The notes under the pieces are model-generated. The model was not told where the DNA came from. It saw nothing but the letters and a program-made list of their open reading frames with translations, and searched no databases. A stretch of DNA of 43,935 nucleotides from a virus, in IMG/VR virus record IMGVR_UViG_3300008267_000100, positions 1 to 43,935 of that record. One strand, 5' to 3'. Of the stretch, positions 3,958-37,010 are shown piece after piece. Position numbers and translations under genes: made by a program. Positions within the stretch are counted from its first letter, which is position 1; each line of letters starts with the position of its first letter.

Positions 3958-4299
3958 ATGGATAAGGATAGTGTTTTATTTGACGATAAGAGCTTTAGCG
4001 ATTTGTTGCGTGATGTTTACAACAACACAAAGAAGAAGGAAACTCAAATTAACGGATTAATTGATCAATTAAAAAACCTAATCCGCAATATCACAGACGC
4101 ATCGATGATGGTACCAATGATTAAAGAGTACTTAGAAGTGTCTGTAAAAAACGATGATAACCTTGTGAGGTTGACGGCAATCATACAACGTCTTATCGTA
4201 TCTAACGACAAAGGTTCGAAAGATGAGCTAGGGCTCTCTGAACAAGAAAAAGCACAACTCCTATCAGAAGCTCAGGACATTTTAGATAAGTCCAAATGA
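3958..4299 (+). CDS. Hypothetical helical protein preceding the spike genes
   Basis: A 113-residue protein, almost entirely helical by composition, with a hydrophobic-patterned segment ITDASMMVPMIKEYLEVSVK and an acidic C-terminus. It begins a new transcription or translation unit after the TATTTAT motif and overlaps the first spike gene by an ATGA at 4296-4299. Its position directly before the three spike paralogues suggests a spike or baseplate assembly helper or minor structural part; that is inference from position only. Confidence 0.65.
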   Translation: MDKDSVLFDDKSFSDLLRDVYNNTKKKETQINGLIDQLKNLIRNITDASMMVPMIKEYLEVSVKNDDNLVRLTAIIQRLIVSNDKGSKDELGLSEQEKAQLLSEAQDILDKSK

Positions 4300-5885
4300 G
4301 TAGCTTATTCAAAGGTTTAACTGAAGATTTCAGATCACAAACCCCATCTAATAACAACCTATCAGATGAGGGTGAGGTTTTTATTGCTCAGGTATTAGAG
4401 GTAATAAAAAACACAACCGATCTTGAAGGCTTAAAACAAGAGCCTGCTGCTACCGGGCTTATTCGATTCAACAAAACAACTCTAGCTAAGAGACCAGAAA
4501 GCGCAGCTGCATCAGTTGCAGAACCTCTGGATAGAGCAAACTATAGATTGCCATTAGCTGGTGAACAGGTGCTTGTTGTAAGGCGGATCGATCGATACTA
4601 CTACTTCAATGTCATGTCGCCTTTATTGGGCATGCTACTAAACATAGATCCAACTCTATTGTTGTCTCCCTATGAGTCAAGTGACTTATCGGATGTAGAG
4701 GTGGATCCAGATGTCGAAGCAATACGATTTGAATTAAGACATGATTTTGAGCAGGAAACTCTAAAGAAAAAAACAAGCCTACAAACAAGACCGAGAGAAG
4801 GTGAAACTATCTTAGAGGGTAGGATGGGTGGAGTTATTAAACTGACTCACACAAATACAAAGGAAGGTGTTTGGGATAAAGAGAAGCAGATAACTAATTT
4901 GGGAATTAGTGAAAATGGAGATCCAATGCTCGTGATCAAATCCCATGTCAGAGAAAAAAACTCTGAATTTGATATAACACAAACAAACGCACTTGAAGAC
5001 GACAACATAAACGTGGATAGATCAAGTCTATATTTAACTACTACTCAAGTCGTCCCACTACAAGTTCTTACTAGCCGCAAAATGTATAGCTGGAATCTGC
5101 CTTTATTCCAAGGGAAGTTTGCACTAGCAGATGATCCCTCGGCAAGATTTAGCTCAATGTTCCCTGAATTGAGTTATGACCCAAATTTTGTACCATCGGT
5201 GGACGTGTCTGGTTTACAGGCACAAGTAGGGCCTGGTGGAGTAGTTAGTGGTGTTAACGATTCCGGAGTACCAGGATCAAGTGCAACTGCAAAGTCAATA
5301 GACGATCTGAAGGTGAAGTTTCAAAGTCTAGGATACAGCTGGCCAGGCCAATTACACTTTGTAGGAATTAGATCATCAACAAACATTAATACAGGTGGTG
5401 GTGTTGCTACTAAAAACAGATTTGCCGACTTGGTAGGTTATGTAGACGAAACAGTATCTCCGCCAGTTGTTAAATTCTTTCCAGCAACAACAGTACCAGG
5501 TAAATCTTATCTAAGAACCTTTTACCCAGGCCAAAATAGAACAGCTATTCTGATGCCGGCTCAATATAAAAATGGGTTCAAGATTGGAATACACATAGAG
5601 TACAAGGCGTTTAGACAGAACGCTGTATTTGGGATATTTAATGACCGAAACCAAGACGACGTACCAGACTCAACACCATCCGACACTGCGTCAGGTGGAA
5701 ACTATGGAATAAATTTGCACCGTGCTGGAGCTAACTACCTTGCCACTACCGTAGACAATTATAGTGCTGGCTGCCAAGTACTCCAGCAAAACATACACCT
5801 TCAAGAGATGCTTCGTGCTGCTGAAGCAGCTTCGTCGATTATGGGCACTACTTCCTTTACTTACACTCTAATAATGTCTTTTTAA
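4296..5885 (+). CDS. gp5-like spike/hub protein with L,D-transpeptidase-like domain (paralogue 1)
   Basis: A 529-residue protein. Residues 1-300 match its two downstream paralogues: an OB-fold-like stretch (LDRANYRLPLAGEQVLVV, about 78-95), the block EGETILEGRMGGVIKL (about 168-183), GDPMLVIK, and NVDRSSLYLTTTQ (about 239-251), as in gp5 baseplate proteins of marine T4-like phages. A Gly-rich linker (about 305-325) leads to a unique C-terminal domain with H475, then S490-A-G492-C493 in GINLHRAG...YSAGCQV. The H-x14-S-x-G-C spacing is the catalytic signature of L,D-transpeptidase/YkuD-type cysteine enzymes, although the usual Arg after Cys-x is not present. It should sit at the tail tip and cut murein during entry. 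The first half is solid; the enzyme class is inferred from a short motif. Confidence 0.8.
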   Translation: MSSLFKGLTEDFRSQTPSNNNLSDEGEVFIAQVLEVIKNTTDLEGLKQEPAATGLIRFNKTTLAKRPESAAASVAEPLDRANYRLPLAGEQVLVVRRIDRYYYFNVMSPLLGMLLNIDPTLLLSPYESSDLSDVEVDPDVEAIRFELRHDFEQETLKKKTSLQTRPREGETILEGRMGGVIKLTHTNTKEGVWDKEKQITNLGISENGDPMLVIKSHVREKNSEFDITQTNALEDDNINVDRSSLYLTTTQVVPLQVLTSRKMYSWNLPLFQGKFALADDPSARFSSMFPELSYDPNFVPSVDVSGLQAQVGPGGVVSGVNDSGVPGSSATAKSIDDLKVKFQSLGYSWPGQLHFVGIRSSTNINTGGGVATKNRFADLVGYVDETVSPPVVKFFPATTVPGKSYLRTFYPGQNRTAILMPAQYKNGFKIGIHIEYKAFRQNAVFGIFNDRNQDDVPDSTPSDTASGGNYGINLHRAGANYLATTVDNYSAGCQVLQQNIHLQEMLRAAEAASSIMGTTSFTYTLIMSF

Positions 5886-5886
5886 T

Positions 5887-7434
5887 ATGAGTAGTTTATT
5901 TCAAGGATTATTTGAACACATTGACAAGTATAGGTCGACTCCTTTACCATCCAACGTTTCTCCCGATACATTAATCTTAGGACAAGTGCTTAAAGTGTTA
6001 ACAGGAGAGGAGCTTGAAGAAGGTGCCAATAAAGGAGACTTTGATAGCTTAGCAGATCCAATGGAGCCTTTAAAGTATGCTGGGTTAATTTTATTCAAAG
6101 CCGACAAACTAGATGGATACAAGTATGAAAACGAAGTTAGTCGCATTGCTCTTCCTATAGACAGGAGTAACTACAGACTTCCTATACCAGGTGAGATAGT
6201 ACTGCTAGTTGCTGCAGTAAGTGATAACGCACTGTCTTCGGATAAGGTATATTATTACACTAATATTATTACTGGAAAGGATCCTATACGCAATACATCA
6301 AGCCCATACAAACTAACTGGAGCAAGTAGAGTTACAAAACCACCAGCAATACAACTACCAGGTGCTCTTGCAGCTGCCCAAGACGAATTCTCATCACGCT
6401 TTGAAAAGCGATTTGCCCACAACACTCACACTATGACTAAAGAAGGAAAAGTTGTTCCTTTGATGCGTGAAGGTGATAAAATCGTAGAAGGGCGTTTTGG
6501 AGGTTCGATAAAGTTTACAAGTACTATCGCTAAGGTTGCACCTCAAGCTTGGCCCAACTCTCCTTTAGGAAAAAACGTAGTTGATAATAGCAATGACGGA
6601 GATCCCTTTATCATTATAAAAAACACAAAACCAATACTAGCAGAAAACGATCCAACTGACAAAGTAACTCTAGTTGACGATGACATTAACGCTGATATGA
6701 GTAGTATATACGTTAATACATCACAACCAATCCCACTAATTGTAGGAAGTAGTAAAAAAATGTACACATGGAATATAGAAATAGAATCTAAACCTGATTC
6801 CATATTCGCTTCTATTGACAAAGAGACTGTCCGCTTGCAAGAATTTTTTCCTGATACGTATGATCCAAATCAAGTAGTAACTGGAACGGCACAAATATCA
6901 ATCCTAAACACCGGTGGAGAATTATCAGGGCTAGTACCGGGAGGTGTCGGTACAGGAGGACCATTAGGTACAAATGGAAATTTAGGTGACGATGTGATGA
7001 AACCAATTGGTCAAGGTCGACATAAGCTAGCAATAGAAGCAGCAGACGCTTTTATTAGAATGGCTGACGCTGCTCGAGCAGTAGGAGTTAACCCAGTAGT
7101 TACAGACTCCTATAGACCCTTTTCTGTTCAAGATGCTATATTCGATTGGGATCTATATGTAGCTACAGGAGGAGATCGGACGCATACAGCAGCAAATTTT
7201 ACACGAAGTGCAAAGCGTAAAAAGAAAGGAACAAATGGAACAGTAGCTGTAGCATTCCCAGGAACTTCAAACCATGGATGGGGAAAAGCAATTGACATCT
7301 CAGGCGCTGCATGGAAAAAGTTTGTTAGAAATCGTGGTGTAGAGTTTGGATGGTCTTGGTATGAAGGAAGGCAAGTTAATGAAGATTGGCACTTTACCTA
7401 CGATCCAACAAAAAAAGATATATGGCCAGCATAA
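5887..7434 (+). CDS. gp5-like spike/hub protein with M15 (VanY-type) peptidase domain (paralogue 2)
   Basis: A 515-residue paralogue of its neighbours, starting MSSLFQGL one base after the previous stop. It shares the OB-like part (IDRSNYRLPIPGEIVLLV), EGDKIVEGRFGGSIKF, GDPFIIIK and DDDINADMSSIYVNTSQ. A Gly-rich linker (about 338-365) joins a C-terminal M15 zinc peptidase. The signature S461-N-H463-G-W-G466-K-A468-I-D470 fits SxHxxGxAxD, and E499-D-W501-H502 provides the catalytic Glu and third zinc ligand; the DSYRPFSVQ stretch upstream is the usual M15 substrate loop. M15 enzymes are D-Ala-D-Ala carboxypeptidases or L-Ala-D-Glu endopeptidases; which applies is unclear. Likely role: cutting peptide cross-links at the tail tip during DNA delivery. 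Confidence 0.87.
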   Translation: MSSLFQGLFEHIDKYRSTPLPSNVSPDTLILGQVLKVLTGEELEEGANKGDFDSLADPMEPLKYAGLILFKADKLDGYKYENEVSRIALPIDRSNYRLPIPGEIVLLVAAVSDNALSSDKVYYYTNIITGKDPIRNTSSPYKLTGASRVTKPPAIQLPGALAAAQDEFSSRFEKRFAHNTHTMTKEGKVVPLMREGDKIVEGRFGGSIKFTSTIAKVAPQAWPNSPLGKNVVDNSNDGDPFIIIKNTKPILAENDPTDKVTLVDDDINADMSSIYVNTSQPIPLIVGSSKKMYTWNIEIESKPDSIFASIDKETVRLQEFFPDTYDPNQVVTGTAQISILNTGGELSGLVPGGVGTGGPLGTNGNLGDDVMKPIGQGRHKLAIEAADAFIRMADAARAVGVNPVVTDSYRPFSVQDAIFDWDLYVATGGDRTHTAANFTRSAKRKKKGTNGTVAVAFPGTSNHGWGKAIDISGAAWKKFVRNRGVEFGWSWYEGRQVNEDWHFTYDPTKKDIWPA

Positions 7435-7440
7435 TATAAT

Positions 7441-9102
7441 ATGAGTAGCATATACACCGGAATAGGAGACGTACTAGGACCCAATGCACCAGCGTTGGGG
7501 GAATCGTTCTTTCAACGTAACTACGAGAGAATTAGAGTAGCACAAGTCCTGGATGTTATTGTAGACAGCAGCTCTCCCTACTATACAAGTGAGATTGGAT
7601 TTGGCGTAATCCGATTCCGATTCATACCAGAGCACTACAGAAGACCTGAAGAGCTTATAAATTTCTTTGCGTTCCCCATTGACCGATCAAGTTATACAGT
7701 TCCGTTGCCAGGAGAGGGAGTGTTAATATACCCAAGCTTTGTAGGAAATAAGCTTACGTATATGTACGGACAAATCATACAACTAAGCGCTAACAACGCT
7801 TACAACGTAGAACCATTTGCAGCAACAACAGCAGATAGAGTTGGTGTGGATGTCTTAGACTTAGCTGTTGATGAGCAAGAATTGGCGTTGCGTTTTGAAA
7901 AAAAACTACAAATACCAATTGAAACTTATAAGGCTAATACACCATACGTTAGATTGCTTCGTGAAGGAGATTCTATAATAGAAGGTAGATTTGGAAGCAG
8001 TTTATATTTTTCAAGTACGCAAGAAAAGAACATACTGCAGAGTGTATTTAAGGCTCCTAACATAGGAAGAGATGAGTTGCGAAAGAGCCTAACATCAGAA
8101 GACGGTGATCCCATTGTAATACTTCAAGCTAACAAGAGAGACTTCAGCTCTGGTGAAGCAGTGATTCCAGTGGCACCATCAATTAACGACGATATGTCCT
8201 CTATATATCTAACAAGTACGCAAGTTATTCCAATGAGGGTTATGGGTAGTGAAAAAATGCTTAGTTGGAATGTAAGTGTCGTAACTTCCAAACAACAAAA
8301 GAGACCAATACAAGTAACTGAAGATACTGCAACAGCACTCCTAACAGAAGGGTTCCCAGACAGGTATGATCCAAACCAAGCCTTTAGTGTTAATCTTAAT
8401 GTAGCAATTGGCGGTGCAACTGGTGGAGGTTTGAGTGGTGGAGGAACTGCTGGCGCAGCTCTAGGCCTGCCCGAAAGCGAAGCACTATCTTACGATTTAA
8501 TTTTATCACACGAGGGTACCATTCTTGAGGCAATGTGGGATATTGCTAACTGGCGAATAGGACATGGAAGTAGTACATTTACGCTAGCAGATGGAACAGT
8601 AATCAAACTACCAGGAAATAAATCACAATGGCCATCTGGTTTTGATCAAGCAACTAAACAGCTTGTATTCACAGATATTGGCAACGAAGTGGAGACTAAG
8701 GGGAAGTTTCATAAAAATGGTTATATTTGGGTTTCTAAAAATAGTGGTAGAACAGCATCACCTTTAATAACTCAAGCAGACGCTGACAGAGATTTGGCTC
8801 GTCGAGTAAAAGAAGAGTTTTTGCCTGATACAAAAAAGGATGTAGTAAAAGCTTGTAGGCAAGCTAACCTCGATGGTGAGGCTGTTTGGACTAATTTAGG
8901 TAAAGGTGCACATGCTGCTTTATGTAGTATTAAATACAATTACGGAAACGTAACACAAAACGGTGCAGCAAAAGCAGCTGCTCAATCGCAAGGAAATAAA
9001 GATACATTAGCAAGTTGGATTGAGAACGAACTTCAAGGAGGATCAAAGGATCGTCACCGTGATGAAGCATTCACTTGCAGAACTGGACAAGTTAGTAGGT
9101 AA
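7441..9102 (+). CDS. gp5-like spike/hub protein with GH24-like lysozyme domain (paralogue 3)
   Basis: A 553-residue third paralogue. The shared part includes IDRSSYTVPLPGEGVLIY, EGDSIIEGRFGSSLYF, GDPIVILQ and NDDMSSIYLTSTQ. After a Gly-rich linker (about 325-345) comes a lysozyme-like domain: E358 in DLILSHEG and D367, nine residues apart as E11 and D20 are in T4 lysozyme, then NWRIGHGSSTFTLADG, a form of the WRIGYGS block found in phage lysozymes. Later come a D/A-rich helix (TQADADRDLARRVKEEF), ALCSIKYNYGN and a terminal CRTGQ matching the T4 FRTGTW region. T4 gp5 itself carries a lysozyme domain, so this is the paralogue closest in design to T4, but with the enzyme at the C-terminus. Confidence 0.87.
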   Translation: MSSIYTGIGDVLGPNAPALGESFFQRNYERIRVAQVLDVIVDSSSPYYTSEIGFGVIRFRFIPEHYRRPEELINFFAFPIDRSSYTVPLPGEGVLIYPSFVGNKLTYMYGQIIQLSANNAYNVEPFAATTADRVGVDVLDLAVDEQELALRFEKKLQIPIETYKANTPYVRLLREGDSIIEGRFGSSLYFSSTQEKNILQSVFKAPNIGRDELRKSLTSEDGDPIVILQANKRDFSSGEAVIPVAPSINDDMSSIYLTSTQVIPMRVMGSEKMLSWNVSVVTSKQQKRPIQVTEDTATALLTEGFPDRYDPNQAFSVNLNVAIGGATGGGLSGGGTAGAALGLPESEALSYDLILSHEGTILEAMWDIANWRIGHGSSTFTLADGTVIKLPGNKSQWPSGFDQATKQLVFTDIGNEVETKGKFHKNGYIWVSKNSGRTASPLITQADADRDLARRVKEEFLPDTKKDVVKACRQANLDGEAVWTNLGKGAHAALCSIKYNYGNVTQNGAAKAAAQSQGNKDTLASWIENELQGGSKDRHRDEAFTCRTGQVSR

Positions 9103-9125
9103 TCCCTACAAAAGAAGTTACACAG

Positions 9126-9134
9126 TATTTATAA
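9126..9134 (+). promoter_or_regulatory. TATTTATAA motif, copy 3
   Basis: Exact TATTTATAA in the 40-base gap between the lysozyme spike gene and the needle gene, 8 bases before ATG 9143. Its presence here implies the needle can be expressed separately from the three enzyme-bearing paralogues. Confidence 0.5.
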
Positions 9135-9142
9135 TAAAATAG

Positions 9143-10171
9143 ATGCCAATACCACCAATTCCCGATAACTTTGCGCAAGCACTACAACAAGCAGTAGGAG
9201 GTAGTAATGCGGCAAACGCACCAGCACAAGCAACTCCTGCTGGAGTTAATGGAGAGATAGTAGCAAATCCTGCCACATTAGCTCCAACAGGCCCAACAGG
9301 ATCCTCAGCTCCAACAGGTTCTGAAGCAACCGGTTCAAATCAACCTTGGAATTTACCAATGGATGATTTTCTATTCCAAAGCGGAATTGAACCGCTACCA
9401 GATGATATGTACGACAAGCAAACTCTTAAGCTGGGTTTGGGTGCAGTGGGATTATCTCCTAGAGGAGATTTTGTAGTAAATGATCATGCAGACGGAAGCC
9501 CTTCCATTCTTATCAACTCAGATCGCGTAATCATTAACTCAAAAAGTAGTCACACTATTATAGCAGGAGCTGACGGTGTTGCTTTAACATCACCAACAAA
9601 GGTAAACATAGATGCTGATGAAAGTGTAACAATTTTTGGTGCACAGGGCATATACTTAGGAGTCCCTAATAAAGGAGAGAGGCCAGCTGAGTATCCGGAT
9701 TCAAGTATTGTCAATCTTGCCAATCCAGCCTTCTTCAAGGACGGAAAAAAACTTAAATCATTCCCAGCACCGGATGTTCCGTACGAACCTATGGTATTAG
9801 GACTAAAGTTAGTAAACTGGCTTGAAGACCTTTTATTAGTTATCAAAAACCAACAAATACTAACACCAGTAGGTTTAGGAGCAACGAGAGAGGATGCACA
9901 ATGGGACTATATAGCGCTACAAAGCAGATTAAACGAATTAATATCAGATTACATCTACATCGACGGTTATTCACACGAAAAGCCTGATTTTAAATCAGTA
10001 CCTAAGCCTCCTGAAAAGGTTACAAAACCAAGAACCTCTATTGAAGTTAATGCAAGTGTTACTATTACTCAAGCAACACCAACAGTAGGCCCTGTGAGTT
10101 CACCCAACGCAAATAAACCAGGCTATTATGAAAGCAATAGCGTAACAACACCAAGCTTAAAAACAAATTAA
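9143..10171 (+). CDS. Baseplate central-spike needle (gp5 C-terminal beta-helix-like)
   Basis: A 342-residue protein with a Pro/Ala/Thr/Gly-rich N-terminus (about 20-70), then a repetitive beta segment at about 115-175 (SILINSDRVIINSKSSHTII, VNIDADESVTIFG, GIYLGVP), the pattern of the intertwined trimeric beta-helix of T4 gp5. The following helical part (LGLKLVNWLEDLLLVIKNQQ) resembles the region after the beta-helix in marine gp5 proteins. It lacks the OB and enzyme parts. In T4, spike hub, lysozyme and needle are one gene; here the needle appears as its own gene next to three enzyme-carrying hub paralogues. The Pro/Thr-rich C-terminus may bind the tip or baseplate. Confidence 0.75.
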   Translation: MPIPPIPDNFAQALQQAVGGSNAANAPAQATPAGVNGEIVANPATLAPTGPTGSSAPTGSEATGSNQPWNLPMDDFLFQSGIEPLPDDMYDKQTLKLGLGAVGLSPRGDFVVNDHADGSPSILINSDRVIINSKSSHTIIAGADGVALTSPTKVNIDADESVTIFGAQGIYLGVPNKGERPAEYPDSSIVNLANPAFFKDGKKLKSFPAPDVPYEPMVLGLKLVNWLEDLLLVIKNQQILTPVGLGATREDAQWDYIALQSRLNELISDYIYIDGYSHEKPDFKSVPKPPEKVTKPRTSIEVNASVTITQATPTVGPVSSPNANKPGYYESNSVTTPSLKTN

Positions 10172-10173
10172 AG

Positions 10174-11013
10174 ATGGCTAATTTATCAGGTTCACTATCT
10201 CAAGTAGGTTCTGTTGTTTTATTAACAGAAGCAGCAACAAAATTTTCCGAAATGGCAGCTGCGTTTTCGCAAGCTAATGCTGGGAAGACTTTGACAATTA
10301 TACAAGGATATATGTCGGAATGGGATATGTACAAGGAGTATTACGATAATTACGTTGGTGCGCTCAAAAGCGAATTAGAGAATACAGTTAAGCCAATACT
10401 AGATAATGCTACTCCAACTGAAGCTGATCGTACAACCCTATCTAACTGGTTCAAAAACACAGGTTACAACGACTACAATTATCAGAACACTCCTCTTGCA
10501 GCTGCACAATCAACCTGGACACACCATAAGAAGTTTAAATGCTCGTGGGCCCATGCGTATTTTGCTGATGGTACCATAATATATGGAATCCCTAATAACT
10601 TAGACAACGATCCACGCCGCACTGGTCGGTTTATACTTATTAGTACTGGTGGAGATCAATCAATGCTACAATGGTTGTTTCGAAACAGCTTTAAGTATGG
10701 CTTCTATTGGTATGGTCCATTAGATGGAGCATTTATATATGTTGGTACAAATCCTCTAAAGGAGGATAAGCAAAAGATTTTAACAAATCTTGGAATGCAG
10801 ACTAATTTTTTTGGAGTTATAGGAGCACAAACACAAACCTATCCAACTACTCCCGATGAAGTGACAAGGTTTGTTAATAGCCTTGAAAAAACTGGAACAA
10901 TAACAAACTCAAGTGGTGAGACAGTTGATGCTGTAGTTTGCAACGGAGTCACTCGTCCTAAAACAGATTTTAATTGGACAGGATGGACCTTAGTGATGAA
11001 TGACATAAGTTAA
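10174..11013 (+). CDS. Hypothetical spike-associated protein, possibly a decayed M15 peptidase fold
   Basis: A 279-residue protein starting 2 bases after the needle gene. A helical N-terminal half is followed by segments that echo M15 layout: IIQGYMSEWDMYKEYY (compare the substrate loop), SWAHAYFADG (compare SxHxxGxAxD) and LQWLFRNSFKYGFYW followed by GAFIYVG, where active enzymes have NAxxYGF then E-x-W-H-F. The zinc-binding Trp-His is absent, so if homologous it is catalytically dead. Position suggests a baseplate hub or spike partner. The M15 relationship is inference from weak pattern similarity; the gene itself is secure. Confidence 0.6.
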   Translation: MANLSGSLSQVGSVVLLTEAATKFSEMAAAFSQANAGKTLTIIQGYMSEWDMYKEYYDNYVGALKSELENTVKPILDNATPTEADRTTLSNWFKNTGYNDYNYQNTPLAAAQSTWTHHKKFKCSWAHAYFADGTIIYGIPNNLDNDPRRTGRFILISTGGDQSMLQWLFRNSFKYGFYWYGPLDGAFIYVGTNPLKEDKQKILTNLGMQTNFFGVIGAQTQTYPTTPDEVTRFVNSLEKTGTITNSSGETVDAVVCNGVTRPKTDFNWTGWTLVMNDIS

Positions 11014-14178: not shown

Positions 14179-14532
14179 ATGAAACTGAGTCAATTTAAAA
14201 GTATGCTTCGTGAGCTTATAAGAGAAGAAGTTCGCGGTGTTGTAAAACAGGAGTTACGAGTGTTATCAGAGCAGAAGGTTCTACAAAAGCAACCACCAAA
14301 GCAGGCAAACAGACCTCAGCGAACCACACCACTAGTGACCTTAGATGAACCCTTTGGTATGGCATCAGACACACCGTTTGGGCAACTACTACAAGAGACA
14401 GCAGCAAACATGGCTGGTTTTGGTGAAGAAGTAGAGGAAACTAACCCAGACTTTCCAATGGGCTCAACAGGAACAAATGCATTTGTTAAGGATTATTCTG
14501 AAGTACTTAAAAAATCCCAAGGAATTAGATAA
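14179..14532 (+). CDS. Hypothetical baseplate-region protein
   Basis: A 117-residue protein with an amphipathic basic/acidic N-terminal helix (LSQFKSMLRELIREEVRGVV) and a Pro/Gly-rich, probably disordered remainder (about 40-105). Its stop shares a base with the gp25 start (TAATG at 14530-14534). The N-terminal type recurs at the start of small structural or assembly proteins of T4-like aquatic phages. Likely a minor virion or assembly factor, by position only. Confidence 0.65.
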   Translation: MKLSQFKSMLRELIREEVRGVVKQELRVLSEQKVLQKQPPKQANRPQRTTPLVTLDEPFGMASDTPFGQLLQETAANMAGFGEEVEETNPDFPMGSTGTNAFVKDYSEVLKKSQGIR

Positions 14533-14954
14533 TGGCCTACGTTATTCAAGTCAATTCGGTTGATTTAGAAAAGAATGTGGCATTAGGTATTGATTTACCT
14601 ATGGTGGGAGCGGTGGGTGCAGTCTTCAAGTCAAACTACTTTAGCTTAGATCAAGCAGTTGCAAATGCAAAAAATCTCCTATTAACAGAACCTGGAGAGA
14701 GAGTGATGTTGCCAACTTTTGGTTGTGGGTTAAAAAAAGCTCTGTTTGAGCAGCTGACAACTGAAACCTTAATAAACCTAGAAGCAAGAATAAGAAACGC
14801 ATTTCAGACCTTCTTACCTTACATATTTATACAAAACTTAGTATTAACACCAAACGATACAAGACAATCTATAGCCATTCGATTAGATATTAGTCTAAAT
14901 GAATCAGGAATAGACACAAGATCGATATTTTTAGAAGTCAATGGCGGAACGTGA
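14532..14954 (+). CDS. gp25: Baseplate wedge protein gp25 (GPW/gp25 family)
   Basis: A 140-residue protein, close to the family's usual size (T4 gp25 is 132). It has the diagnostic core LLLTEPGERVMLPTFGCGLK followed by ALFEQ (about residues 50-75), which in gp25/GpW-family proteins corresponds to the EPR-type core joining sheath and wedge. In contractile tails gp25 sits at the top of the wedge and nucleates sheath assembly together with gp6. The next gene is gp6, overlapping by 14 bases, the same pairing as in T4 and other contractile injection systems. Confidence 0.92.
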   Translation: MAYVIQVNSVDLEKNVALGIDLPMVGAVGAVFKSNYFSLDQAVANAKNLLLTEPGERVMLPTFGCGLKKALFEQLTTETLINLEARIRNAFQTFLPYIFIQNLVLTPNDTRQSIAIRLDISLNESGIDTRSIFLEVNGGT

Positions 14955-16821
14955 TATAAAATACAACAGTAGGGATTTTGATGCGCTGAAACTGGGCTTA
15001 ATAGAGTTCACCAAAGCATACTATCCAGAATCCTATACCGACTTCAACGAAGCCTCACCCGGCTCTCTATTTGTCGATTTAGCAGCCTACGTAGGTGATG
15101 TTTTAAGCTACTATACGGATAGTAACTTAAAAGAATCCATGCTCCTATATGCGCAAGAAAGACGAAACCTACTAAATCTTGCTGCAGCAGTTGGATATAA
15201 GCCAAAAATATCAGTTCCAGCATTAGTTGACCTAGATGTATACCAACTAATGCCAGCAATAGGCACAGGTGAAAATAGTGAGCCGGATACCTCATACGGA
15301 CTTAAAGTAGAAAGAGGACTAGAGGTACGCACAAAAACCCCAGCCATCACTTTCACAGTTCAAGATACGATTGATTTTAAAGTGAACGATGTGTTTAATC
15401 CCACTGAATACTCTGTCTACAGCATTGACAACAACACAGGAGATCCGATATACTATTTAGCAAAAAAAACTGTAAGAGCAATCAGCGGCAGACTCATTAC
15501 AACTACAGTCGATATTGGATCGCGTGAACGCTTTACTAAGATTTTATTAGAAAACGATCCAAATAATCCAATCATTGGAGTCGAGACTATTTTAGATAGT
15601 GACGATAATATCTGGTACGAGGTACCTTACTTAGCACAGGATACAATCTTTGAAGAGGTTACTAATACAGCACTCAATGATCCGGATTCGGCTGTTTATA
15701 GCAACGAGACCCCGTACTTATTGCGGTATAAAAAAGTACCAAGAAGATTTATTACGCGAGTAGTAGAGGATGGATTAGAGATTCAATTTGGTGCTGGGAT
15801 ATCCTCAAATCCGGACGAAGAACTGCTGGCTACACCAGAGCAAATAGGACTAAACCTACCAACTGGTAAAGCTAACACAGATGCGTCGTTTGACCCAAGC
15901 AATCCGCTATTAACAAGTGCATATGGTTTAGCTCCATCAAACACGACACTGACAATTAACTACTATGTTGGAGGTGGTGTAACATCAAACGTTGCCTCAA
16001 ATACTATTGTGGAGATTGCAGCTGCCAACGTCACCAATTCTCAACTACCAGCTAGCACACCAACACTTAACAACGCTGTCATACAGAGTCTTGCTGTCAA
16101 TAACGCAACTGCGGCAACTGGAGGAAGAAACGAAGAAACAATAGAAGAAATAAGACAAAATGCACTTGCTCAATTTACTGCACAAAGTAGAGCTGTGACT
16201 CGAGAAGATTACATAGTGCGTTGCTATTCCATGCCAAGTATTTACGGCTCAGTAGCAAAAGCATATATAACACCAGATGAGCAAAATAACTTGCTAACAT
16301 CAGACGCAAATGATGTTGTAGCAAATCCACTAGCTTTAAATTTATACACACTAGGTTACGATAGTAATAAGCAATGTACACCTCTAAACGCTGCTATAAA
16401 AAGTAATGTAAAAAATTACATTGACAGGTATAGAATGCTAACAGACAGCATTAACATAAGAGATGCTTTTATTATTAATATTGGTGTTAAGTTTGACATA
16501 GTAGCACTTCCAAACTTCAATAACAATGAAGTGATTCTACGTTGTATTGCTAGAATGAAAGACTTTTTTAATATCGATAGATGGCAAATAGGGCAGCCAA
16601 TCGTTCACAGTGAAGTGATAACAGCCCTACTACAAGTCAAAGGTGTGCAGACCGTATCAAGAGTTCGCATCACAAATATATTTGATGACGGATACAGCAA
16701 CGTAGTGTATGACATACAAGCAGCAACCGTAAATGGAATCACCTACCCAAGTCTAGATCCAGCAATATTTGAAGTAAAATACCCTGACATTGACATCGAA
16801 GGCAGAATAACCCCATTCTAA
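14941..16821 (+). CDS. gp6: Baseplate wedge protein gp6-like (J-like)
   Basis: A 626-residue protein similar in length to T4 gp6 (660). The N-terminus (NSRDFDALKLGLIEFTKAYY, then ASPGSLFVDLAAYVGDVLSY and NLLNLAAAVGYKP) is the typical gp6/baseplate-J opening in marine T4-like phages. The segment AVTREDYIVRCYSMPSIYG at about residues 418-436 is the conserved core found in J-family proteins, and ALLQVKGVQTVSRVRI follows near the C-terminus. gp6 dimers form the inner ring of the baseplate and bind gp25 and gp53. The start overlaps gp25 by 14 bases, as expected for stoichiometrically coupled parts. Confidence 0.9.
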   Translation: MAERDIKYNSRDFDALKLGLIEFTKAYYPESYTDFNEASPGSLFVDLAAYVGDVLSYYTDSNLKESMLLYAQERRNLLNLAAAVGYKPKISVPALVDLDVYQLMPAIGTGENSEPDTSYGLKVERGLEVRTKTPAITFTVQDTIDFKVNDVFNPTEYSVYSIDNNTGDPIYYLAKKTVRAISGRLITTTVDIGSRERFTKILLENDPNNPIIGVETILDSDDNIWYEVPYLAQDTIFEEVTNTALNDPDSAVYSNETPYLLRYKKVPRRFITRVVEDGLEIQFGAGISSNPDEELLATPEQIGLNLPTGKANTDASFDPSNPLLTSAYGLAPSNTTLTINYYVGGGVTSNVASNTIVEIAAANVTNSQLPASTPTLNNAVIQSLAVNNATAATGGRNEETIEEIRQNALAQFTAQSRAVTREDYIVRCYSMPSIYGSVAKAYITPDEQNNLLTSDANDVVANPLALNLYTLGYDSNKQCTPLNAAIKSNVKNYIDRYRMLTDSINIRDAFIINIGVKFDIVALPNFNNNEVILRCIARMKDFFNIDRWQIGQPIVHSEVITALLQVKGVQTVSRVRITNIFDDGYSNVVYDIQAATVNGITYPSLDPAIFEVKYPDIDIEGRITPF

Positions 16822-32922: not shown

Positions 32923-33846
32923 ATGGACGTAAACCAGTTACAACTAAAGCAAATAGTAGATAGTCATTTGGGAGTAGGTATCGCTAGTAAGACTGGTGAA
33001 ACTAGCTACTTCTGTCCATTCTGTAACCATTACAAAAAGAAACTACAAGTAAATTATATCTCTGAGGTATTCCATTGTTGGGTTTGTAATACAAAAGGTA
33101 GGTCGATTGCTACACTTTTAAGTAAGTCAAACGCTCCTAAGCATTTATTTCTTAAAGCACTAGAGCTGACAACAAGAAAGCCGCAAAACCACACAAGTGA
33201 AGCAAAAACCACACAAGTAACATTACCAGCAGAGTACGTTCCAATGTGGAAAGGAAACACAAACAGTCCCTATTTTAGGAACGCTCTTCACTATCTTTTA
33301 GAAAAAAGAAAGCTAACCAAATACGACATCTTAAAGTACCAAATTGGATATTGTGAGAGTGGTGAATATGGTGGAATGGTTATTATTCCAAGCTACGATG
33401 AGCATGGACTACTAAACTATTTTGTAGGTAGAAGCTTCTATTCCAACCCAACAATCAAACACAAAAACCCTGACTCCTCAAAGGATATAATAGGCTTTGA
33501 ATCGATGATAGATTGGAGTCAACCTATAACAATTGTCGAAGGAGCTTTTGATGCAGTATCGACAAAAAGAAATACTATACCGTTGTTTGGCAAGAATATT
33601 TTAAGTAAATTAAAGTCAAAGATTATAGAGCAACGTGTACGAACTATATACCTCGCTTTGGACCCCGATGCTATTGGTAAGGCCGTGCCTGAGGTAGAGT
33701 TCTTTATAAATAATGGAATCGATGTTAAGCTAGTAAAGTTGGAGCAAGATCCAAATGATACTGGCTTTGAGGGTATGAGAACTGTGATTAACCAAACGCC
33801 AAGTGTGGACTTGTTTGATCTCGTTAGTTTAAAGATGGCAATATGA
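32923..33846 (+). CDS. gp61: DNA primase, T4 gp61-like (zinc finger plus Toprim)
   Basis: A 307-residue protein from ATG 32923; a TTG at 32914 would add only three residues and is less likely. The N-terminal zinc-binding domain has C31-P-F-C34 and H51-C52-W-V-C55. The Toprim core shows E206 in ITIVEGAFDAVS and D247-P-D249 in IYLALDPDA, the metal-binding acids of DnaG-type primases. Size and organisation fit phage primases such as T4 gp61 (342 residues), which make RNA primers for lagging-strand synthesis with the replicative helicase (not in this window). The gene overlaps the start of the recombination nuclease gene by 4 bases. Confidence 0.88.
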   Translation: MDVNQLQLKQIVDSHLGVGIASKTGETSYFCPFCNHYKKKLQVNYISEVFHCWVCNTKGRSIATLLSKSNAPKHLFLKALELTTRKPQNHTSEAKTTQVTLPAEYVPMWKGNTNSPYFRNALHYLLEKRKLTKYDILKYQIGYCESGEYGGMVIIPSYDEHGLLNYFVGRSFYSNPTIKHKNPDSSKDIIGFESMIDWSQPITIVEGAFDAVSTKRNTIPLFGKNILSKLKSKIIEQRVRTIYLALDPDAIGKAVPEVEFFINNGIDVKLVKLEQDPNDTGFEGMRTVINQTPSVDLFDLVSLKMAI

Positions 33847-36800
33847 TAAACAAGATTAAAAGCGAACTAAAGACTGTAGATAAGATTCTTCACATTGCCG
33901 ATGTGCATATACGCAATTGGAAGAGGCATAAGGAATATAAGCTTGTTTTTGACCAACTATTCGAAGCTGCTAAGCAGCTGCCTGAGAACAGTATTATTAC
34001 TGTGGGAGGAGACATTGTCCATGCTAAGACTGATATGAGTCCTGAGCTAATACATATGCTATCCTATTTGCTGTTTTCGTTAGCTGACATAAGACCTACT
34101 GTAGTTATCTGTGGAAATCACGATACAAACCTTAACAACAACAACAGACTAGATGCACTAACTCCGGTCATAGAAGCCAAGCAGCATCCAAATTTATTTT
34201 ATCTAAGAGACTCTGGAGTTCATAAGATTGGTGACGTTGTGATTAACGTAATGTCGTTATTGGACTCTGTTGATAAGTATAAAACAGCTGATAAAATTAC
34301 TACGAAACGAAAGTGCCTTATTGCGATGTACCACGGCACTATTGCTAACAGTAAAGTAGATAGTGGATTGAATATAGCTCACGGATTAGATTGGGACATC
34401 TTCGCCGGACACGATCTAGTTCTCCTTGGCGACATACACAAGAGACAGGTGCTATGCGACAGCAACCCATTAATATTCTACCCAGGCAGTACAGTACAGC
34501 AAAACTTCGGAGAATCATATGAAGGACATGGGTATGCAATTGTTGACTGCAACAACCTATCAGTAGAGTTTCACGATATTCCAAATGAATACGGCTTCTT
34601 TACTTTAGAAATTGCAGATGGTGTGCTTCCAAAGAACCTACCCATCACACAACGAACAAGTGTAAGGCTAAAGACGACCAACACACCTCCAGCCCAAGTA
34701 AAAAAGATACTAGCTGAACTTCGTAAAGAATACAAGACTAGTGATGTAATTGTTACAAACTTAGATAAGGGAAGGTCCACTTCTCAGTTAGAGATAGATG
34801 AGAGCTTTAATGGTGTCGATGTTCGCAATCTCGACTATCAAACAAAGCTAATCACAGACTATGTCGATCAGTACCACCTAGATGAGGAGCTGCTTTCAAA
34901 AGTTTTAGAAATAAATAAACTAACAAACCAAGCGCTAGCAAGTGGGGATCACGTACGCAACATTACATGGAATCCTAAGCGTTTTGAGTTTAGCAATATG
35001 TTTAGCTATGGAGAGGATAATGTGATTGATTTTGAAAAGTTAAACGGTACTTGTGGTCTTTTTGCACCTAATCATGCTGGTAAATCGGCGATACTAGACT
35101 CACTTTGTTTTTGTTTGTTTGATCATTCCTTTAGAGCAAGCAAAGCAGAGCAAGTGCTAAACAGAAAGAAAGATGGCTTTTGGTGTAAGTTTAACTTTGA
35201 ACTCAATGGATTGGATTATTTTGTTGAAAAAACTGCAACAAGATACGCTAAAGGTCCTCTTGCTGGAAAGCTGAGAGTTGACATAAATTTTTGGTACATT
35301 AACGAAGAAGGACAGCAGATCTCCCTTAACGGAGAGCAGAGGAGGGATACGGATAAGATAATACAAAGCTATGTAGGAACTTTTGATGACTTCATTTTAA
35401 CAGCTCTATCCTTGCAAGGCAATAACTCCAACTTTATTGAAAAAACTCAAGGAGAGAGAAAGGATTTGCTTGCAAACTTTCTTGACCTAAAGATATTTGA
35501 TAACCTCTACGACACCGCAAATAAAGAAATAAAAACCACTTCAATACTACTTGAGGAGTATCAAAAGCAAGACTTTGAAACAGCACTCGGAGATGCAGAG
35601 AGGTTGTTGGAGTCTGACCAGAGGTTGTACAAGGAGCAAGAGCAAGCTCAGACAGATCAAACCAAAGTAGTAGATGGAATTAATGCTCAAATACTGCAAT
35701 TAGCCAAGGAGCTGAAGCCTAACGAAGCTGATGGGTTGGATATCGATACACTCAATGCTCAAGTGACGAGAAGAGAGCAGGAAGTTACTACAAAGGAGGA
35801 AGAGCTCTCAAAATGCAATGCACAAGTTACTAAGTTACAGCAGGATATATTAACCTGCATGGACAACATAGAACAATACAATGAACAAGCTCTCGAACTA
35901 GCTTTCCAACAGCTCACAATCAAGCTTAAAGAAAAAGAGACCTTAGACCAAAAGCTACAACACTATAAGCTAACGATATCAGCAAAACTTGATAAATTAA
36001 CCAAATTAGAGGAGCATGAATATGATCCTAATTGCAAGTACTGTACATCGAATATATTTGTTAAAGATGCTATAAAAACCAAAGAAGAGTTGGAGAACGA
36101 CAAGAAGTCGATAGCACAGTTCCTCACACAAAGAAAGGCTGTAGAGCAGCATATTCAAGATAATCAACAGATGCAAACCGACTACAACAACTTGCAACGT
36201 GAGTTGGGTGAAAAGGCACGAGTGGAGCAGATACTTGCTATCCAGCAAAGCAAGCTTACCTCTTTGAAGAGTCAACTAACAACATACCAAAATAGCTTAG
36301 AACAGGCCCAAAAACAGGTAAAGACTTACAACGATAACTTATCTGTGATTGAGCACAACGAGAGGCTCAATGATCAAATTGAAACTCTCACAAACCAACT
36401 CAACCTGGAAAAGCAGAAGGCAAATGCGATTACTAAAAAACTACAGGAAATCCATGGAAGAGTGAAGGTTAGTGAGGAGTCCATCGCTCAATATGAAAAG
36501 AATATTGAACACATGCAACAGCTATCAGAAAAGCAGTTAGCATACGAATACTATCTTAAAGCAGTATGTCGTGATGGAATCCCATATGCACTAATAAGCA
36601 AGGCTATTCCATACCTACAAGCACAGGTGAACAGCATCCTAGCTCAAGTAGTTGACTTTACTGTTGAAATAGAGACAGATGGTAAGAACATCAACGTATA
36701 CATTAACTACGATGACAACAAATGGCCACTAGAACTAGCATCTGGCATGGAGAGATTCGTCAGCTCCCTAGCTATTCGTGTAGCATTGATCAAAATTACA

Positions 36801-37010
36801 AACTTACCAAAGCCAAACTTTATTGCAATAGATGAAGGTCTTGGCGTGCTAGACAGCAGCAACCTTAATTCAATGCATATGCTATTCAACTATCTAAAGG
36901 ATATGTTCAAGTTCAATCTTGTCATTAGTCACATAGACGTTGTGCGAGATATGGTTGATAACATACTTACCATTGATCGTAAAGATGACTTAAGCTATAT
37001 TAGGTATTAG
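33843..37010 (+). CDS. gp47-gp46: Fused gp47-gp46 (Mre11/SbcD nuclease plus Rad50/SbcC ATPase)
   Basis: A single 1055-residue polypeptide. Residues 1-340 are a calcineurin-like nuclease with D20-V-H22, GGDIVH (55-60), G91-N-H-D94 and GDIHK (196-200). From about 375 a Rad50/SbcC ATPase follows: Walker A GLFAPNHAGKS (405-415), a Q-loop-like region LSLQGNNSNF, long coiled-coil arms broken by a zinc hook C731-K-Y-C734, a signature LELASGMERFVSS, and Walker B FIAIDEG (D997, E998). In T4, gp46 and gp47 are separate proteins that resect DNA ends for recombination-dependent replication. No stop or frame change is visible between the halves, so the fusion looks genuine. It follows the endonuclease and primase genes. 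Confidence 0.93.
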   Translation: MINKIKSELKTVDKILHIADVHIRNWKRHKEYKLVFDQLFEAAKQLPENSIITVGGDIVHAKTDMSPELIHMLSYLLFSLADIRPTVVICGNHDTNLNNNNRLDALTPVIEAKQHPNLFYLRDSGVHKIGDVVINVMSLLDSVDKYKTADKITTKRKCLIAMYHGTIANSKVDSGLNIAHGLDWDIFAGHDLVLLGDIHKRQVLCDSNPLIFYPGSTVQQNFGESYEGHGYAIVDCNNLSVEFHDIPNEYGFFTLEIADGVLPKNLPITQRTSVRLKTTNTPPAQVKKILAELRKEYKTSDVIVTNLDKGRSTSQLEIDESFNGVDVRNLDYQTKLITDYVDQYHLDEELLSKVLEINKLTNQALASGDHVRNITWNPKRFEFSNMFSYGEDNVIDFEKLNGTCGLFAPNHAGKSAILDSLCFCLFDHSFRASKAEQVLNRKKDGFWCKFNFELNGLDYFVEKTATRYAKGPLAGKLRVDINFWYINEEGQQISLNGEQRRDTDKIIQSYVGTFDDFILTALSLQGNNSNFIEKTQGERKDLLANFLDLKIFDNLYDTANKEIKTTSILLEEYQKQDFETALGDAERLLESDQRLYKEQEQAQTDQTKVVDGINAQILQLAKELKPNEADGLDIDTLNAQVTRREQEVTTKEEELSKCNAQVTKLQQDILTCMDNIEQYNEQALELAFQQLTIKLKEKETLDQKLQHYKLTISAKLDKLTKLEEHEYDPNCKYCTSNIFVKDAIKTKEELENDKKSIAQFLTQRKAVEQHIQDNQQMQTDYNNLQRELGEKARVEQILAIQQSKLTSLKSQLTTYQNSLEQAQKQVKTYNDNLSVIEHNERLNDQIETLTNQLNLEKQKANAITKKLQEIHGRVKVSEESIAQYEKNIEHMQQLSEKQLAYEYYLKAVCRDGIPYALISKAIPYLQAQVNSILAQVVDFTVEIETDGKNINVYINYDDNKWPLELASGMERFVSSLAIRVALIKITNLPKPNFIAIDEGLGVLDSSNLNSMHMLFNYLKDMFKFNLVISHIDVVRDMVDNILTIDRKDDLSYIRY

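Follow-up and report, generated by a model that had tools for sequence, protein, structure and literature searches.

Introduction

By the textbook view, the tail spike of a contractile phage is a homotrimer bearing one set of enzymes. In this work, a spike cassette was analyzed in the viral record IMGVR_UViG_3300008267_000100, whose whole length of 43,935 nt, taken as one strand from 5' to 3', is referred to as the window. The cassette encodes three tandem paralogous proteins with a gp5-like hub (H1, H2 and H3), each ending in a different domain of wall-cutting type, followed by a needle on a gene of its own. This anatomy is firm, while the best but unproven reading of it is a spike in split form, in which the three hubs would be co-assembled, most likely as a 1:1:1 heterotrimer, on a homotrimeric needle; we regard this reading as evenly balanced between right and wrong.

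In phage T4, cleavage of gp5 parts the hub with its lysozyme from the needle, giving (gp27-gp5*-gp5C)3 as the mature complex, and trimerisation is driven by gp5C (PMC3004832). The window resembles this system in its gp5-like N-terminal hubs, in the wall hydrolases lying beyond them, in a needle that is a separate polypeptide in the mature state and in the GH24-type lysozyme of H3. It differs in having three diverged hub genes instead of one, a needle that is encoded separately instead of being released by cleavage, enzymes at the C-terminus and no usable hub sequence similarity to T4 gp5.

Paralogous gp5-like spikes with different C-terminal enzymes are also represented by VgrG1-3 of V. cholerae, for which a heterotrimer was reported as required; findings in A. 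dhakensis qualify this (PMC8668125), and those in Serratia contradict it (PMC4924876). VgrG proteins belong to a secretion system and keep the needle in the chain, whereas the window is a phage locus with a separate needle and with all modules directed at the wall. The hub gp15 of Anabaena phage A-1(L) carries lysozyme, endoglucanase and peptidase domains (PMC10966104) and thus likewise brings several wall-cutting domains to one tail tip, but there a single chain of the trimeric hub carries all of them and the spike protein is separate, while in the window they are spread over paralogues.

Flavobacterium phage immuto and Microcystis phage Mel-JY01 share the gene neighbourhood of the window and have a homologous hub and needle, but as a single chain with one hub copy and no enzyme on it. 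An OB hub of the 642-kb phage LR756502 (L008:9032-10546) combines a gp5-type OB domain (PF04717, E 1.4e-5; phrog_430, E 1.5e-14) with a C-terminal phrog_3000 domain, as H1 does; it is the single such hub in the stretch read and is not closely related in sequence. Within L008:4544-10546, an upstream 883-aa protein has a GH19-type-looking C-terminus, an enzyme-on-hub design in a huge phage. No description of paralogous phage hub subunits with different enzymes was found in the open literature searched, the coverage of which was incomplete.

Three hub paralogues and a separate needle

Four open reading frames (ORFs) make up the cassette and, like the other features of the window given below up to position 16821, lie on the plus strand: H1 (4296-5885, 529 aa), H2 (5887-7434, 515 aa, 1 nt after H1), H3 (7441-9102, 553 aa, 6 nt after H2) and the needle gene (9143-10171, 342 aa, 40 nt after H3). 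All four were found exactly where a preliminary description of the sequence had placed them. That description had also proposed a tandem trio sharing about 300 residues, which was borne out when H1, used as the query in a search of the record, recovered H2 at E 1.6e-35 and H3 at E 1.2e-30. Over 280-340 residues, pairwise identity is 34% for H1/H2, 29% for H1/H3 and 34% for H2/H3, and these values rule out chance or a frame artefact as the source of the likeness. The hub profile matches residues 1-305 of H1 (4296..5210; match 1-304/307), 1-332 of H2 (5887..6882) and 1-320 of H3 (7441..8400); past residue 340-380 the three proteins are unrelated to one another. Almost no nucleotide similarity is left among the three genes, indicating that the duplications are old. 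A recent duplication or an assembly artefact is ruled out by this near-absence of DNA similarity together with the recurrence of the arrangement in independent contigs.

The gp5-like character given to the hubs in the preliminary description was upheld, their OB fold being putative. In the predicted model of H3, strands occupy residues 31-113 with a predicted local distance difference test score mostly >85. Against viral structures, this model matched a gp5 N-terminal OB protein with probability 0.99 but E 0.065, and its top PDB match was a P1 baseplate chain (E 3e-3). The hub profile matched T4 gp5 and the LR756502 OB domain weakly (E 0.15 and 0.1), and neither the hub nor the needle profile gave a useful match among PDB sequences. 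The closest structure match of H3 is a 549-aa phage protein named 'Glycoside hydrolase, family 19' (41% identity); relatives sit in public protein databases and, as far as seen, are not recognised there as a set.

The fourth gene (9143..10171) encodes a predicted beta-helix without hub or enzyme and has no profile match. It is matched by the single-chain hub+needle proteins of Mel-JY01 (E 1.6e-6) and immuto (E 3e-5) in their C-terminal halves, which agrees with its earlier identification as a needle and rules out that it is an unrelated gene. Hub and needle are on separate chains in the window and on one chain in immuto, Mel-JY01 and the related loci L060/L122, where a single-chain orthologue stands between the same flanking genes.

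C-terminal enzyme domains

The catalytic residues named in the preliminary description proved exact on direct inspection of all three genes: H475/C493 of H1 lie in 'GINLHR...SAGCQV', H463/D470/H502 of H2 in 'SNHGWGKAID...WHF', and E358/D367 of H3 in 'HEGTILEAMWD'.

The C-terminus of H2 (7012..7434) is a VanY/M15 zinc peptidase matching PF02557 over residues 379-477 (E 3.4e-13, above the family cut-off) with the SxHxxGxAxD ... WH zinc motif present, as had been proposed. The C-terminus of H3 (8461..9102) has no family match of its own; its E/D motif aligns (hhalign E 2e-7, prob 93.6) to a GH24 domain that Pfam confirms in a sister phage. E358...D367 is invariant among the relatives of H3 and, in an alignment with T4 gp5, falls on the catalytic residues. 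The catalytic Glu and Asp are nine residues apart in an EG(x7)D...G-x-G motif, in which Arg replaces the usual Thr. The H3 model gives matches to the lysozymes of T4 and P22 (prob >0.9 but E about 0.02) and also to viral lysozymes, so that the GH24-like reading held.

For H1, the C-terminal domain (5300..5885) matches phrog_3000 over residues 370-525 (E 3.3e-17) and phrog_33083 'endolysin' (E 1.3e-6). Outside the window, the phrog_3000 domain is found by itself as a short protein in Bacteroides phages, and the OB hub of the 642-kb phage carries it as well. The L,D-transpeptidase-like character ascribed to it is a candidate reading: the His and the S-x-G-C motif are invariant in the family, but Cys is followed by Gln or Val, not Arg, and no Pfam, NCBIfam or PDB match supports a YkuD fold. 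DpaA is a YkuD-fold enzyme that hydrolyses such bonds rather than forming them (PMC10653827), and by this precedent a hydrolytic role of the H1 domain is possible, with cutting of L,D-type links as its putative activity. Two three-hub phages encode a stand-alone 198-aa phrog_3000 protein (L110:3504-4100 and L058:19021-19617), about 32% identical to the H1 enzyme and probably the endolysin of those phages.

Spike arrangements in related phages

Related contigs were found by scans anchored on gp6, the needle and a 113-aa protein encoded upstream of H1, and their ORFs were classed by the hub and needle profiles. Loci from one contig partly overlap, and the counts given are loci unless stated. Hub and needle were in one chain in about 48 loci. 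In 25 loci the order was hub, GH108-type gene, needle and homologue of the 279-aa protein that follows the needle in the window, and in 19 loci, from 9 different contigs including the window, it was three hubs, needle and 279-aa homologue. Two hubs with a needle were found in 4 loci, one hub with three needles in 4 contigs and one hub with two needles in 2 (L074, L076). In each of the nine complete arrays (the window and eight IMG/VR contigs), the hubs number exactly three and one separate needle follows them. A further scan with an H1 alignment added no new three-hub contig, and a scan of genome contigs gave matches only in two uncultured-bacterium contigs. At L025:47-2238, the same part of a p1035 homologue occurs twice in inverted orientation at the contig end, probably an assembly or amplification chimera.

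Single-hub relatives encode extra enzymes as neighbouring genes, namely GH108 (L117, PF05838, E 1.3e-8), a GH24-like enzyme (L108) and VanY on the 279-aa protein; in Mel-JY01 a chitinase (COG3179) is annotated as a gene of its own. It could be, on this evidence, that the window has one true hub, and that the other two serve to carry enzymes, docking at the baseplate through a domain derived from the hub and replacing the stand-alone enzyme genes. This is improbable, as all three proteins keep the whole hub region, its conserved motifs and strong constraint, and a docking role would not require a copy without enzyme. Such copies exist: an enzyme-less first hub is kept in L111, L114 and L112 and in the two-hub phages L150/L154, suggesting that each copy has a structural role and that the third hub is more than an enzyme carrier.

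In single-hub relatives, the gene that separates hub from needle was considered as a second hub and rejected, having no hub-profile match and being a GH108-type lysozyme instead (L117:11351-12280, L124:11467-12432, L133:3134-4249, L136:11421-12503). In three-needle phages, its homologue has no recognisable GH108 motif and may be a degenerate pseudo-enzyme.

The three-needle loci (L133:4249-8647, L139:2735-7209, L141:7259-11744 and L144:2685-7027; L139 = L078) mirror the window, as a different C-terminal domain stands behind each needle: VanY, SGNH-like and endolysin in L133, and Phage_lysozyme2, M15_4 and an unknown domain in L144. Needle 1 of L139 shows an apparent frameshift break relative to L141. 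The relatives with two hubs and one needle lie at L147:10342-13278, L148:5935-8870, L150:8819-11262 and L154:3119-5562. A further possible reading is that each paralogue forms a homotrimeric ring, with all three rings stacked in every particle and the needle on the last. Stacking would account for the two-hub relatives, the enzyme-less copies, the fixed order and the non-interchangeable positions described below, but it leaves the mirror case of three needles on one hub unexplained, and the gp5/VgrG-type spikes known so far contain a single trimeric OB layer (PMC3004832). Stacked rings are therefore considered rather unlikely.

Constant hubs and exchanged modules

In the hub tree, the first, second and third hubs of the arrays (h1, h2 and h3) fall into separate clades with full support, in group A (the window, L102, L104 and others) as well as in group B (L107, L111 and L114), indicating that the hub subunits are not interchangeable. 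Against a single ancestral triplication with conserved order, a clade made up of the middle hubs of both groups was rejected (p 0.0035); grouping all A hubs together, unlike that pairing, was not rejected. The needle tree places the two three-hub groups as sisters, with the single-hub L123 outside. The hubs may have been triplicated once or twice.

The enzymes change on these constant positions. Modules without a family match of their own were assigned by similarity to a matched member. In the order h1/h2/h3, the window carries L,D-transpeptidase-like (LDT-like), VanY and GH24 modules. L103, L104 and L110 have LDT-like, CHAP- or NlpC-like (read from a Cys/His motif, with no family match) and GH19-like modules, and L109 has LDT-like, CHAP-like and GH24. 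GH24, CHAP-like and GH19-like modules are found in L102, GH24-like, M23 and GH19-like ones in L115, and Phage_lysozyme2, SGNH-like (our own motif reading) and M23 ones in L107. In L111 the order is none, VanY and GH19-like, and in L114 none, M23 and GH19-like. Hubs that are 44-76% identical bear C-termini without any similarity, and between the window and L102 all three enzyme types differ by position. In some M23 modules the first His that is usual in the motif is missing, and not every module can be counted on to be active. The preliminary description had suggested a combined attack on glycan strands, D-Ala peptides and L,D-type links; as a conserved property this was not sustained, because relatives bear other enzyme trios on the same hubs.

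Between L103 and L104, synonymous divergence in the hub and enzyme parts was 0.14 vs 1.21 for h1, 0.37 vs 2.39 for h3 and 0.84 vs 0.21 for h2, and such jumps are as expected under module exchange by recombination. In this one pair of relatives, the ratio of nonsynonymous to synonymous substitution rates (dN/dS) was 0.02-0.09 for all three hub genes, indicating purifying selection.

At least one glycosidase-type and at least one peptidase-type module were present in 9/9 arrays tested (the window, L102, L104, L107, L109, L110, L111, L114 and L115). When the same modules were dealt at random, this pattern arose in 0.06-0.2% of trials, a value to be taken as a guide only, the arrays not being independent and some classes being our own reading.

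The very different enzymes within one array would also suit particles that each carry a homotrimer of one hub type, so that a burst would hold a mixture of particles with different enzymes as bet-hedging against variable walls. T4 gp5 is trimeric with three copies per tail (PMC3004832), and VgrG1 and VgrG2 of Serratia were reported to form no heterotrimers (PMC4924876). Such an arrangement remains unlikely, though less so than stacked rings: particles built from the enzyme-less hubs of L111, L114, L112 and L150/L154 would have no tip enzyme, and all nine arrays keep three hubs in a fixed order.

Proposed assembly of the spike

The fixed number and order, purifying selection, the enzyme-less h1 and the triplication of the needle in a related lineage favour co-assembly of the hubs, most simply as a heterotrimer. 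The presence of both glycosidase-type and peptidase-type modules in every array and the VgrG heterotrimers of V. cholerae (PMC8668125) speak for it as well. In this model, an ancestral single-chain hub+needle protein, still present in relatives, would have been split, with the needle placed on a separate protein and the hub triplicated to give distinct subunits, each of which would bear an exchangeable wall hydrolase behind a flexible linker. One copy of each subunit would form a heterotrimer at the base of the homotrimeric needle. The topology would be that of mature T4, (gp27-gp5*-gp5C)3, with gene splitting in place of cleavage, and the hub chains, freed from the needle, would have been able to diverge. 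On contraction, the outer membrane would be pierced by the needle, after which glycosidase, peptidase and a third activity would act simultaneously to digest the wall at one spot.

Several points weigh against this model. Relatives with two hubs (L147, L148, L150, L154) or two needles (L074, L076) show that three is not obligatory; under a heterotrimer, they would need a 2:1 trimer or a copy elsewhere, and no third hub was found in a 116-kb two-hub contig. The Serratia precedent means that paralogous spikes can stay homotrimeric (PMC4924876), the nine arrays are few and related, and the OB fold of the hubs rests on a model of moderate confidence and weak profile matches. The heterotrimer raised in the preliminary description is accordingly retained in part: the presence of exactly three hubs, their positional orthology, the retention of an enzyme-less hub and the mirror lineage with three needles speak for it, and the two-hub and two-needle relatives against it.

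Genomic context

The 113-aa protein (3958..4299) lies directly upstream of H1, with which it shares an ATGA overlap. It marks the cluster in relatives, with 82-86% identity in close relatives of either arrangement. Downstream of the needle, the 279-aa protein (10174..11013) contains a weak VanY-like stretch without zinc residues (E 0.08); in several single-hub relatives an intact C-terminal VanY domain stands behind the corresponding part of the homologue, and the window protein is possibly a degenerate peptidase turned structural. Further downstream are a gp25-like wedge gene (14532-14954; PF04965, E 2.1e-11) and a gp6/Baseplate_J-like wedge gene (14941-16821; PF04865, E 2.2e-5; phrog_219, E 4.9e-20), indicating that the cassette is the spike region of a T4-type baseplate operon. 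An apparent fusion of an SbcD-like nuclease and an SbcC-like ATPase is encoded at 33843-37010 by one 1055-aa ORF (phrog_100, residues 10-373; phrog_77, residues 360-1054).

Implications

The window cassette belongs to a wider pattern, apparently undescribed, in which spike proteins are split and multiplied and their hydrolases are exchangeable. A more far-reaching claim, that the heterotrimer is obligate with broken three-fold symmetry and that, together with the related needle-tripling lineage, spike proteins have repeatedly become hetero-oligomeric enzyme racks, is tentative and in our view falls somewhat short of an even chance. The cassette offers a natural test of heterotrimer versus homotrimer assembly in the gp5/VgrG family, which is disputed for type VI secretion. 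If the heterotrimer is true, hydrolases spread over paralogous subunits would explain how glycan and peptide are cut at one entry point, and wall specificity would evolve by swapping modules behind a linker while the assembly interface is left untouched. The interchangeable enzymes on constant hubs suggest a three-part puncturing tip with swappable cutters.

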